From a virus: a stretch of 22,953 bases of DNA. Positions 1,764-17,750 of this stretch are shown here, piece by piece. Both the position numbers and the translations under genes were made by a program. Numbering within the stretch: the first letter of the stretch is position 1; every line of letters begins with the position of its first letter. The notes below the pieces were generated by a model. It saw only the letters and a program-made list of their open reading frames with translations, was not told the origin of the DNA and made no database searches. The stretch covers positions 1 through 22,953 of the IMG/VR virus record IMGVR_UViG_3300006751_000152, one strand, 5' to 3'.

Positions 1764-1797
1764 TGTTTTGCTTCTCTCTAATTTCTCTGTTAATAAT
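1764..1797 (-). repeat. Repeated intergenic leader, copy 3
   Basis: This third leader copy reads ATATATTATTAACAGAGA, then AATTAGAGAGAAGCAAAACA before the ATG at 1763. It overlaps the final codons of the upstream gene (stop at 1790). It is a little shorter on the AT-rich side than copies 1 and 2. Confidence 0.75.
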
Positions 1798-1966
1798 ATA
1801 TAGGTTTTCTAACTGTGTTAGAATAGTTCTTCTTCTTCTTTATATTTTTTAAAATAGCTTTCCCTACTCCATAAGATGCCCCTAAAGCAGGGTTCATCTT
1901 AGTAGCTGCAAATAGTACTGGATCAGCAATAAATTCATATGTTTTTCGTTTCTTACTTTTTTCCAT
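1790..1966 (-). CDS. Small basic protein, first gene of terminase operon
   Basis: The ATG at 1966 follows GAAGGAAGCAAAACA, the 3' part of the shared leader; an ATG at 2002 lacks that context. The 58-residue product is Lys-rich with an Ala/Gly segment (LFAATKMNPALGASYGVGKAIL) and ends YSNTVRKPIYY, a weaker version of the VRKAKY tail. It is the first gene after the minus-strand promoter at 2220-2247, with a long structured leader between. No family is recognised. Confidence 0.65.
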   Translation of the reverse strand: MEKSKKRKTYEFIADPVLFAATKMNPALGASYGVGKAILKNIKKKKNYSNTVRKPIYY

Positions 1967-1999: not shown

Positions 2000-2102
2000 C
2001 AAAAGGTAGGCATAGAGTTTGCCTCTAACTTATTCAATAGTCCCTTAGAAAAAGGGGTGCACCGTAGTTATGATAACTAATTGGTGCTGAACCTACCTTT
2101 TG
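2000..2102 (-). ncRNA. Cloverleaf-like structured element in late leader
   Basis: An 11-bp perfect outer stem (CAAAAGGTAGG at 2000-2010 with CCTACCTTTTG at 2092-2102) encloses three hairpins. These are TAGAG/CTCTA (2013-2017, 2023-2027), CCCTT/AAGGG (2042-2046, 2052-2056) and a two-part arm GCACC/GGTGC (2059-2063, 2083-2087) topped by TAGTTA/TAACTA (2065-2070, 2074-2079). Together they form a four-way junction. It lies in the presumed 5' leader of the minus-strand terminase operon. Loop sizes and the lack of an anticodon arm exclude a normal tRNA. It could be a regulatory RNA, a processed small RNA, or a DNA or RNA signal for packaging. Strand assignment is inferred. Confidence 0.6.
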
Positions 2103-2114
2103 CCCCATATGGGG
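2103..2114. repeat. Perfect 12-bp palindrome CCCCATATGGGG
   Basis: The palindrome directly abuts the outer stem of the structured element. It could be a protein-binding site or extend the RNA fold. Confidence 0.6.
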
Positions 2115-2219: not shown

Positions 2220-2247
2220 ATTATAGTGCTGTAGAGAGATTTGTCAA
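2220..2247 (-). promoter_or_regulatory. Consensus sigma-70 promoter for terminase operon
   Basis: Read on the minus strand, TTGACA (2247-2242) and TATAAT (2225-2220) are both perfect and spaced by 16 bases. The start would be near 2213, giving a leader of about 245 bases that contains the palindrome and the cloverleaf-like element before the gene at 1966. It is back to back with the plus-strand promoter at 2276-2304. Confidence 0.75.
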
Positions 2248-2275: not shown

Positions 2276-2304
2276 TTGACAGATCCTGATCTCAGCAGTA
2301 TAAT
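2276..2304 (+). promoter_or_regulatory. Perfect sigma-70 promoter, plus strand
   Basis: TTGACA (2276-2281), a 17-base spacer and TATAAT (2299-2304) match the textbook consensus exactly. An A-tract lies just upstream and could act as an UP element. Transcription would start near 2311 into a region with no convincing gene, so the product may be a non-coding RNA. Confidence 0.75.
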
Positions 2305-14022: not shown

Positions 14023-15233
14023 TACAGAAACAAATATTAGCCTTGTGTTTATACCATGAATTCTGGAAAGATGCAAAACGAATACTCAATGCAAAAATGT
14101 TCCCAAAAGAATTGAATAGTATATTTACTGCTATATCCGATGCTCATAAAAAATATGAAACTACTTTTAATGTTATGGAATTGCTGTTGGTTCATCGTGA
14201 TAAGTTTCCAGCTTTACCACCAACAACAAGAGATGAAATTGAAGATGTAATAAAAAGTTTAGAAATTGTAAAAGTTCCACATGTAAAATTAGCAAAAGAT
14301 GTTCTTTATAATTTTTGGAAAAGAGATAAAGCTAGGGAATTAGGAGAAAAAGCTGTTGAAATTTATAAAGGTAAGACTAATATAACATTTGGTGATTTAC
14401 AAAAAATTATTGATGATGCAATTAATAAAGAAAAAATTGAGGGAGGTGCTACATATACTATTGTTAATGAAGATATTGAGGAATTATTAAAAGAAGCTAT
14501 GACAGATACAGAATTCAAATTTAATTTAGATCCTTTGTCCTCAAACATTGAGGGATTATCTCGTGGGCATTTTGGAATTATTCTCGCAAGACCGGAACTT
14601 GGAAAGACAACATTTGCTTGTCATCTAACACAGGAATATATTAAACAAAAAAAGAAGGTTGTTTATTGGGCAAATGAAGAACCAGCTGTTAGAATAAAAT
14701 TAAGAATTTTACAAAGTTATTTTGAACGAGAAAAGCAGGAAATGATAGAAGATATAAAAGTCTGTAAAAAAATTTATCATAAAGTAATAAAACCGTATCT
14801 TACTGTTCACGATTGTGTGGGGACTGACATTTCTGAAGTTATGGAACACGCAGAATTAAACAAACCGGATGTAATATTTATTGATCAGTTAGACAAAATA
14901 AAAATTGCCGGTTCATATGATAGGGGTGATGAAAAATTAAAAGCTTTATATGTGCAAGCTAGAGAAATTTGTAAGAAAGCAAATTGTCTAGTGTGGGCAG
15001 TTTCACAAGCTAGTTATAATGGTGAGAATAGGCAGCTAATAACATATGCTATGCTTGACAATTCTAGAACAGGAAAAGCTGGTGAAGCTGATTTTATAAT
15101 TGGAATTGGTAAACCTTCAGAAATAGATACTGATGGAACTAGAATATTAAATGTCAGTAAAAATAAAGTTAATGGGTGGCATGGCTATGTTTCCTGTAAA
15201 ATGGATTGTATAAAAGGAAGGTTTGATCCGTAA
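14019..15233 (+). CDS. DnaB-like replicative helicase
   Basis: This 404-residue protein has an N-terminal helical region (1-150) and a RecA-type ATPase core. The core carries a Walker A loop ARPELGKTT (190-198), a Walker B DVIFIDQLD (284-292) and a late KNKVNGWHG segment (381-389) resembling the DnaB KNR-x-G region. It would unwind the duplex ahead of the polymerase and work with the separate primase upstream. The start overlaps the FmdB-like gene by four bases. The ATPase assignment is strong; assignment to the DnaB/T7 helicase family is by motif. Confidence 0.85.
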   Translation: MIQKQILALCLYHEFWKDAKRILNAKMFPKELNSIFTAISDAHKKYETTFNVMELLLVHRDKFPALPPTTRDEIEDVIKSLEIVKVPHVKLAKDVLYNFWKRDKARELGEKAVEIYKGKTNITFGDLQKIIDDAINKEKIEGGATYTIVNEDIEELLKEAMTDTEFKFNLDPLSSNIEGLSRGHFGIILARPELGKTTFACHLTQEYIKQKKKVVYWANEEPAVRIKLRILQSYFEREKQEMIEDIKVCKKIYHKVIKPYLTVHDCVGTDISEVMEHAELNKPDVIFIDQLDKIKIAGSYDRGDEKLKALYVQAREICKKANCLVWAVSQASYNGENRQLITYAMLDNSRTGKAGEADFIIGIGKPSEIDTDGTRILNVSKNKVNGWHGYVSCKMDCIKGRFDP

Positions 15234-15781
15234 TGTTTATGGTGCTTGATGTAGAAACAACATTTAAAGAAGTCAATGGCAAAACTGATCCTAGTCCTTT
15301 TGTAGAAGGAAATAAATTGGTATCTATTGGATTACAAAAATTTAGAACAGATATAAATCCTGTAGAGTATTATAAGTTTTCTCACGAGAGTGGTGACGAG
15401 AGTGAAAAATCTCACAAAATAATAAACAGCTATTTGAAAGAAACAGAATTACTAATTGGACATAATATAAAGTTTGATTTGCAATGGCTACTAGAATGTG
15501 GTTTTGCATATGATGGGGCAGTCTATGACACAATGGTCGTTGAATATTTAATGGCTGGTGGGATAAAATGTGATTTGACATTAGATGGCTGTTGCAGAAG
15601 ACGAGAGATAAAGAGACCGGAAAAAGATTTAGTAAGTGACTATATGAACAAAGGAATAGATTTTCATAGCATCCCTTGGGGTATTGTGAAAAAATATGGT
15701 ATTGCAGATATAGAGGCTACTAAATCCTTATCTGATTATCAGGTAGGGTTATTAAAAACATCTTATAAGGAGTTCTTGTAA
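15233..15781 (+). CDS. 3'-5' exonuclease (DEDD type, proofreading)
   Basis: This 182-residue protein has the three exonuclease motifs of the DnaQ/RNase D fold: DVET (D6, E8), GHNIKFDLQW (D82) and YGIADIEATK (Y155, D159), i.e. a DEDDy type. Family A polymerases normally carry this domain at the N-terminus; here it is a separate gene two positions upstream of the polymerase, so it presumably supplies proofreading in trans. Start and stop share one base each with the neighbours. Confidence 0.85.
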   Translation: MFMVLDVETTFKEVNGKTDPSPFVEGNKLVSIGLQKFRTDINPVEYYKFSHESGDESEKSHKIINSYLKETELLIGHNIKFDLQWLLECGFAYDGAVYDTMVVEYLMAGGIKCDLTLDGCCRRREIKRPEKDLVSDYMNKGIDFHSIPWGIVKKYGIADIEATKSLSDYQVGLLKTSYKEFL

Positions 15782-16221
15782 TGAGACCAATATATGAAAC
15801 TGCAAAAGACAGAAAGATAGAACAGGCAATTATTAATGAATTATCTGATGCTTGGAAAATCTTTTATCAAAAATTACCGATTAAGCATAGACTTGATTTT
15901 GCATTATTAGACGATAGACGAAATGTTACTTCTTGGGCGGAAGTTAAACGAAGGGATAACGATTCAACTACATATGACACATATATGTTAAGTTTAGATA
16001 AATATATGAGTGGTATGAAATTGTTCAAATTAACAGGTTTACCATTTTATTTGGTGGTAAAATTTAGTGATGGTTTGTATTATTGTGAAGTAAGTTTGTT
16101 AAGCTACGCACAATTAACTATATCATTTGGTGGTAGAACTGACAGGGCGGATGCACAAGATGTTGAACCTTGTGTTTTTTTTGATACTAATCTTTTTAAA
16201 AAAGTTGTAAGTAAGGAATGA
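15781..16221 (+). CDS. PD-(D/E)XK-like nuclease fold protein (probable)
   Basis: This 146-residue protein lies between exonuclease and polymerase. KHRLDFALLDDRRNVTSWAE followed by VKRR gives D39...E54-x-K56, the spacing of a PD-(D/E)XK active site. Flanking strands (FYLVVKFSDGLYYCEVS) would complete a restriction-endonuclease-like sheet. It could be a structure-specific nuclease or an inactive relative. The motif is short, so the call is tentative. Overlaps on both sides place it firmly in the replication operon. Confidence 0.6.
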   Translation: MRPIYETAKDRKIEQAIINELSDAWKIFYQKLPIKHRLDFALLDDRRNVTSWAEVKRRDNDSTTYDTYMLSLDKYMSGMKLFKLTGLPFYLVVKFSDGLYYCEVSLLSYAQLTISFGGRTDRADAQDVEPCVFFDTNLFKKVVSKE

Positions 16222-17750
16222 CATTGATACCTACTTGTAAATTATCTCTTGAAGTCACAAGAGTGCTGACAGATATTGAATTAGCAGGGTTGAAGGTTAA
16301 TAGAGATACTTTACAAAAAATTAAAGATGATTATACCAAAGAATATAATCAGTTAGAAAATGATTTGTTGTTAATTGGTAAAGAGGTTATGGGTGATACT
16401 CCATTTAATCTTAATAGTGCAGATGACAGGTCGGTCATTGTTTATTCTAGAAAAGTTAAGGATAAGAAAATGTGGAAGGGCTATTTTAATTTAGGTTCTG
16501 AAATGAGAGGTAATACTAGAAAAGCAAAGAGACGAATAATTCTCACAGATAATCAATTCAAACGAAGTGTAAAAAGTATGACACAGGTTCAAGCAATTAC
16601 TATTGCACACAGATGTAATGAATGTAAAGGAACAGGTAGAGTTGCTAAAAAAAGAAAAGATGGAACTTATGGAACAGCAAGATATATATGTAAGAATTGT
16701 GATGGTAAAGGAATTTATTATGAAGCAACAAGAAAAGTTGCCGGTTTAAAGATAGGACCTCGTTCTGTATATGATGTATCTGTAAATGGTTTTAGAACAG
16801 ATAGTGAAACTTTAAAAGAATTAACTTTAACTTGTAGTGATAAGGCAAAAGAATTTATAAAAAAATATATTAAGTATTCTGCTATAAAAACATATCTAAA
16901 AACTTTTGTTGAGGGTATAGAAAAATCATTAAATAAAAAAGATTTTATTCATCCACAATTTATGCAATGTATTACTGCTACAGGAAGGTTATCATCTCGT
17001 AGTCCAAACTTTCAAAATATGCCACGAGGTGTAACTTTTCCTGTTCGTAAGGCAATAGTAAGTCGCTTTCAGAATGGGTTGATATTAGAGGGTGATTATT
17101 CCCAATTAGAATTTAGAGTTGCAGGATTTTTAAGTAAGGATAAACAGGTGTATGATGATGTTGATAATAATGTTGATGTCCATAGTTATACTGCAGAAGT
17201 TATGGGTATTTCTAGACAAGATGCAAAAGCTCATACATTCAAACCTTTATATGGTGGAACACAGGGAACAGAAAAACAAAGAGAATACTATGGAAAGTTT
17301 AAAACTAAATACTCCGGTGTTGCTGAATGGCATAAGCAATTACAAGAAGAAGCCATCGCATACAAACGAATAAGATTACCTAGTGGTAGAGTCTATAAAT
17401 TTCCATATGTTGAAAGAACTAGATATGGAACTGCATCTCACGCAACTTCTATAAAAAATTATCCGGTGCAAGGATTTGCAACTGCTGACCTTTTACCAAT
17501 AGCACTTGTTAGGACACACAAAGCTATGAAAACATTAGGGTTGAAATCTTTAATTATAAATACGGTTCACGATAGTATTATTATTGATGTTCATCCGGAT
17601 GAGAAAAAAGCTTGTATAATTGCACTCCAGCAAGGTATGTACTCACTAGTTCAAGAGTGTAAAAAGAGATACAACATAGAGTATGATATGCCAATAGGAA
17701 CAGAATTGAAGATTGGTGAGGATTGGTTAAATTTAAAAGAAATAGTTTGA
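16218..17750 (+). CDS. Family A DNA polymerase with zinc-finger insertion
   Basis: This 510-residue polymerase lacks an N-terminal exonuclease. Conserved polymerase motifs are present: TGRLSSRSPNFQNMPR (255-270), motif A DYSQLEFR (293-300, catalytic D293), the O-helix RQDAKAHTFKPLYG (R333, K337, F341, Y345) and motif C VHDS (D452). The residue equivalent to E. coli Phe762 is Phe. Between the N-terminal region and the thumb is a DnaJ-type insertion, CNECKGTG (133-140) and CKNCDGKG (158-165), spaced by basic residues and predicted to bind zinc. It is the replicative polymerase. Confidence 0.92.
   Translation: MTLIPTCKLSLEVTRVLTDIELAGLKVNRDTLQKIKDDYTKEYNQLENDLLLIGKEVMGDTPFNLNSADDRSVIVYSRKVKDKKMWKGYFNLGSEMRGNTRKAKRRIILTDNQFKRSVKSMTQVQAITIAHRCNECKGTGRVAKKRKDGTYGTARYICKNCDGKGIYYEATRKVAGLKIGPRSVYDVSVNGFRTDSETLKELTLTCSDKAKEFIKKYIKYSAIKTYLKTFVEGIEKSLNKKDFIHPQFMQCITATGRLSSRSPNFQNMPRGVTFPVRKAIVSRFQNGLILEGDYSQLEFRVAGFLSKDKQVYDDVDNNVDVHSYTAEVMGISRQDAKAHTFKPLYGGTQGTEKQREYYGKFKTKYSGVAEWHKQLQEEAIAYKRIRLPSGRVYKFPYVERTRYGTASHATSIKNYPVQGFATADLLPIALVRTHKAMKTLGLKSLIINTVHDSIIIDVHPDEKKACIIALQQGMYSLVQECKKRYNIEYDMPIGTELKIGEDWLNLKEIV

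Follow-up and report, generated by a model that had tools for sequence, protein, structure and literature searches.

The DNA at positions 2000 to 2114 of the IMG/VR virus fragment IMGVR_UViG_3300006751_000152 (22,953 nt, the whole of which is called the window here) can be drawn as a four-way junction in front of the terminase operon. The initial annotation proposed a phage small RNA, a riboswitch-like leader or a packaging signal, which raises the question of whether the element works as RNA, on which strand, and in what capacity.

Source phage and late operon

The DNA polymerase of the window belongs to family A, carries a DnaJ-type CXXCXGXG insert, and was closest to that of Pelagibacter phage HTVC033P (48% identity), followed by those of the CRP-series roseophages and HMO-2011. 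This likeness places the source, as judged from the protein sequence, among the HMO-2011-type marine phages, related to viruses of SAR11 bacteria. HMO-2011-type phages count among the dominant marine phages, and the published analysis of their genomes mentions neither promoters nor noncoding RNA (PMC9038755). The polymerase of the window was split over several ORFs at 15233-17750 on the plus strand (an exonuclease part of 182 aa, a phrog_7141 ORF of 146 aa and a polymerase part of 510 aa), unlike the single gene of about 680 aa in HTVC033P and HMO-2011.

The replication genes are directed rightward, and the late operon runs leftward out of a control region at approximately 2000-2820. The operon behind the element was identified as the terminase/late operon for packaging and structural genes, with the terminase small subunit gene terS located at 225-605 on the minus strand (matches to phrog_51 and Terminase_2). 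Its first small gene (1790-1966, minus strand, 58 aa) starts with the ATG at 1966 and differs among relatives. A related contig (L008/L086) has this leader ahead of terS, terL, portal and major head/coat genes, which are co-directional over 20 kb, and the leader promoter in L086 was the only sense-strand match of at least 11/12 across 20 kb of late genes. Sense-strand terminators in the L086 late operon did not exceed chance expectation, and among the proteins of the window none was recognised as antiterminator-like.

The late promoter (TTGACA-16-TATAAT, 2220-2247, minus strand) matched the consensus at all 12 positions, with a predicted start near 2213. The position of the element, behind a consensus promoter on the minus strand and ahead of the first terminase-operon gene, was thereby borne out. 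A divergent promoter (TTGACA-17-TATAAT, 2276-2304, plus strand) was also a 12/12 match. The spacers of the two promoters are alike, with CAGCA before TATAAT, which suggests a shared regulator site. Near-perfect divergent pairs of sigma-70 promoters upstream of terS recurred in L003, L007, L009, L028, L035 and others, distant relatives included. A third promoter-like site, TTGTCA-18-TATAAT, was located inside the leader at 2127-2156 on the plus strand, facing rightward and thus opposite to the late promoter, with an invariant -10 hexamer and a -35 hexamer that was weak (TTTTCA) in L007/L008. In the divergent leader on the plus strand (2311-2402), a short hairpin with (G)ATAAGCAAAACA behind it occurred twice (2339-2359 and 2382-2402). 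Such repeats were also present on the same side in L003, L007 and L083, where the hairpin sequence varied by copy and phage and the box was kept, so that they look like a nut-like, hairpin-plus-box signal.

Fold of the leader element

The initially described architecture was recovered in full. The arms CAAAAGGTAGG (2000-2010) and CCTACCTTTTG (2092-2102) are fully complementary and form a perfect outer stem of 11 bp, to which the minus-strand RNA adds a twelfth pair, U-G, between 2091 and 2011. Comparable perfect inverted repeats (11 bp, span of 30-150 nt, at least five G/C per arm) are expected by chance at 0.11 per window of the same composition. The three internal stems, one of them extended, were likewise found, and the cloverleaf lacks tRNA features, as ARAGORN detected neither tRNA nor tmRNA. 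The palindrome CCCCATATGGGG adjoining the element at 2103-2114 is exact.

On the minus strand, the element (2000-2102) is thus a branched structure closed by P1, with the 5' arm CAAAAGGUAGGU at 2091-2102 and the 3' arm GCCUACCUUUUG at 2000-2011, the latter showing a predicted pair probability of 0.96-1.0 in 5/5 leaders. P2 (2059-2087) is a two-part hairpin, GCACC-AAU-UAGUU-(A/U)UCAU-AACUA-(C/U)-GGUGC, in which GCACC pairs with GGUGC and UAGUU with AACUA. P3 (2041-2057) is formed by CCC(C)U and AGGG, and P4 (2013-2027) by UAGAG and CUCUA, with a linker containing CUAUUGAAUAA at 2028-2040 between them. A small hairpin, CCCCAUAUGGGG, stands beside P1 at 2103-2114. The 124-nt element folded at -46.6 kcal/mol with a z score of -6.1 on the minus strand. 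When both strands were compared, the minus strand (136 nt) gave a z score of -5.0 and the plus strand -3.2.

The 5' leader between the predicted start and the hairpin occupies 2115-2213. Its 5' end can pair locally or, weakly, with AAUCCUA behind the element; an outermost stem of the latter kind is suggestive only, with predicted pair probabilities from 0 to 0.83. A boxA-like site in the 5' leader (AUCUUAACA) was dropped, as L003 loses one base there.

Conservation in related phages

Homologues were found at the same position in four related IMG/VR phages, namely L002, L003, L007 and contig 3300030100_001326 (L069/L075/L083; L005 belongs to the same contig as L083), the last by a covariance model. 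The element of L008 is identical to that of L007. Searches with terS, the P1 pattern, the conserved leader motif and the P2 pattern all converged on the same four phages, the P2-based search returning known members only. The element was present in every clade member with the leader covered; L006 starts just downstream of the expected site. Six matches of the P1 pattern in bacterial genomes were regarded as chance, since none gave a fold match better than E 0.49.

The element was 92-97% identical to that of the window (92-96% for L007 and the L005/L083 contig), and the 5' leader was 92-100% identical between relatives and 96-100% identical to the window (about 96% in L007 and L005). The DNA identity of terS to the window was 70.5-72.6% in L007 and L005, far below the 92-97% of the leader over 215 nt. 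The conserved sequence begins at the promoter, not at the element, and part of the high identity may stem from the leader having recently been exchanged as a module. The z score of the fold ranged from -5.6 to -6.9 in the window, L003, L007 and L083.

More distant relatives also have a strong promoter before terS, often as a divergent pair, and their leaders were without comparable structure, with z scores from -2.1 to +0.2 for the terS leaders of six of them. The covariance model gave no match in HTVC033P or HMO-2011, and searches of the phages collection gave no instance of the element. The 34 further records likewise yielded none, an absence that says little, as leader coverage was established for few of these. 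HTVC033P (L070, record of approximately 51.6 kb) has a strong branched fold of its own, CCACCA..GGGCC ... GGCCCCCUGGUGG, at 31620-31735 just upstream of the terS promoter, with a sequence unrelated to the element of the window.

Compensatory changes and strand of the element

Base pairs were counted over the 36 pairs of the element and the neighbouring hairpin in five sequences, and 98.9% of the counted cells were standard pairs on the minus strand. The initial annotation would have been refuted by a lack of compensatory changes in relatives; three two-sided changes were in fact found across the five sequences. Two of them, A-U to G-C and G-C to A-U, lie in P4 of L003, which also carries an A-U to G-U change in this hairpin, and the third is C-G versus U-A in the outer pair of P3, which reads C.A in the window and L003. 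In addition, there were four one-sided changes (C-G to U-G, A-U to G-U twice, and U-G to U-A), all of which keep a G-U or U-A pair in the minus-strand RNA, while each would involve A.C if read on the plus strand. Over all counted cells, 2 were non-pairing on the minus strand versus 7 on the plus strand.

The 12 pairs of P1 were kept in 5/5 sequences, two of them varying on one side but staying G-U or U-A. In the hairpin at 2103-2114 (loop AUAU or AUCU), one stem pair became U-G, so that in L007 and L083 the RNA stem was kept while the symmetry of the DNA palindrome was lost. The loop of P3 varied in length by indels. In contrast, the 10 pairs of P2 were all invariant and CUAUUGAAUAA was identical in 5/5 sequences; this near-invariance of P2 with its loops and of the linker suggests that they are specifically recognised and do not serve stability alone. 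The control for covariation was modest, as 13 of 500 shuffles reached the observed value with only five distinct sequences, and 29 of the 36 pairs in the counted structure were invariant.

The element was 102, 103 or 104 nt long among the members, owing to single-base indels in P3, and since these indels break reading frames, the element is not coding. A short ORF running through it (ATGGGGCAAAAGG...) was rejected: L083 has no ATG, and in L002, L007 and L083 the frame is shifted by indels of one base. The preservation of the fold, the compatibility of G-U changes with the minus strand only and the broken frames together identify the element, from comparative sequence evidence, as a genuine structured RNA of the minus strand, situated in the 5' leader of the late operon in this HMO-2011-type clade. 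Of the two points initially marked as inference, the RNA nature is thus supported and the strand settled as minus, on the grounds of conservation, of compensatory and wobble changes and of the sense orientation to the perfect promoter and the late operon.

Relation to the downstream genes

The first gene behind the leader was different in L003, L007 and L083 although the leader was kept. These first genes come from an array of small genes with common initiation sequences and a common C-terminal tail. The first ribosome site and start codon were predicted to be unpaired at 66-82% on average in 5/5 leaders. The variable first gene and the open ribosome site therefore tie the element to the promoter and the operon and not to a single gene, and make it unlikely that the element controls this first gene as a riboswitch or autoregulatory leader.

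The array itself, at 790-2000 on the minus strand of the window and also in L003, L007, L083 and L006, consists of small basic genes sharing the initiation sequence TATTAACAGAGAAAT...GGAAGCAAAACAATG. Otherwise different proteins end in the common tail KKQYGGPVRKAKY or in GG.VR variants, and the gene content of the array differs among relatives. The genes are possibly exchangeable cassettes, or the tail may serve packaging or targeting.

Proposed role and alternative explanations

We consider, with a probability of about 70%, that the element works in cis, as a structured RNA of the late operon's 5' leader. Transcription of the minus strand would start from the strong sigma-70-type promoter near 2213, and the transcript would carry, in this order, a nearly invariant segment of about 100 nt, the small hairpin, the four-way-junction element, the small genes, terS, terL, portal and capsid genes. 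The element would then act on this message or on the polymerase making it. A tentative proposal, by analogy with put and EAR as the most specific precedents, is that it modifies the elongating RNA polymerase and thereby allows read-through of an operon of more than 20 kb with a single strong promoter; as sense-strand terminators in the L086 late operon were no more frequent than chance predicts, antitermination would have no visible target. Almost as likely is that the element protects the 5' end of the late mRNA or serves its processing; a weaker candidate is that it binds a regulator, from phage or host, which sets the timing of late expression.

Some of the same features would also suit a free small RNA of approximately 100 nt, cut from the leader or ending after P1 and acting in trans: the fold is compact, very stable and closed, the loops and the linker are invariant, P1 has UUUUG at the end of its 3' arm, and the element is independent of the downstream gene. 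We regard such an RNA as improbable, because conservation starts at the promoter instead of the element and there is no conserved intrinsic terminator or attenuator, in the sense of a G+C-rich stem kept across relatives with a run of U behind it. The sole terminator-like candidate, the hairpin at 2024-2008, has its stem broken in L003 and L083, and the UUUUG of P1 is engaged in base pairing. The suggestion of a new phage small RNA was retained as to its RNA nature, its free form being less favoured. Of the proposed riboswitch-like leader, the leader part is the best fit and the riboswitch-like part found no support. Control of the first small gene by a riboswitch or autoregulatory leader would agree with the branched fold directly before that gene, but is very unlikely given the exchange of the gene between relatives, the ribosome site that is not sequestered in any of the five leaders, and the lack of a conserved terminator switch and of an Rfam riboswitch match.

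The remaining alternatives dispense with a functional RNA. The proximity of terS, the inverted repeats and the divergent promoter region would suit a pac/cos packaging or replication site, read as DNA or as an extruded cruciform. The packaging signal of the initial annotation is nevertheless disfavoured, and a DNA signal of either kind has a low probability, as the changes fit a single RNA strand, the palindrome loses its DNA symmetry and keeps its RNA stem, terS is about 1-1.4 kb distant, and HTVC033P, with a TerS 45% identical, is without the element. A chance fold within a region conserved for other reasons could be argued from the few sequences and the 29 pairs that never vary; the z scores near -6 in every homologue, the compensatory changes in two hairpins and the low expectation for comparable inverted repeats leave it the least credible of all. 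A cis-acting leader RNA thus remains the preferred reading.

Comparison with known systems

A search of Rfam 15 gave no match at the gathering score and only irrelevant chance matches at E values up to 5. The element shares the general features of conserved cis-acting leader RNAs, namely a sense position behind a promoter and a conserved fold with compensatory changes, and, if confirmed, it would represent a new structured RNA family within this known general kind, so far limited to a small clade. As a conserved unclassified RNA at the head of a late operon, it offers a specific, testable handle on how structural gene expression is switched on and sustained in these phages.

HTVC033P and HMO-2011 share with the window the replication module, polA with the DnaJ-type insert, leftward late genes and the strong promoter before terS, but differ in having no match to the element and unstructured terS leaders. 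The prohead RNA (pRNA) of phi29, a branched phage RNA of about 100-170 nt linked to packaging, is contained in Rfam; the present element differs in lacking an Rfam match, in its position in an mRNA leader and in its operon, which has an ordinary TerS/TerL packaging system. In lambda-like phages, the late leader contains promoter-proximal DNA and pause signals acting with Q. The element resembles these sites in its place as a control point, immediately after the one late promoter that serves a long late operon; no relative of Q turned up in the portion of the genome examined. The EAR element of the Bacillus eps operon, also in Rfam, resembles the present element in being branched, in its size of about 100 nt and in belonging to a long operon, and differs in host group and sequence.

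The put RNA of phage HK022 is an antitermination RNA of lambdoid phages, with two adjacent stem-loops in about 70 nt, located in early operons (PMC9378689). Like put, the element is a structured phage operon-leader RNA behind a sigma-70 promoter that needs no adjacent coding sequence, and by analogy could act in cis to modify RNA polymerase. Unlike put, it is a four-way junction of about 103 nt with a closing stem of 12 bp, located in a late operon. It is conceivable, though doubtful, that phages of the SAR11 type use the principle of put, a protein-independent polymerase-modifying signal made of RNA only, with an unrelated fold; if so, such a signal would let one strong promoter drive a late operon of more than 20 kb.
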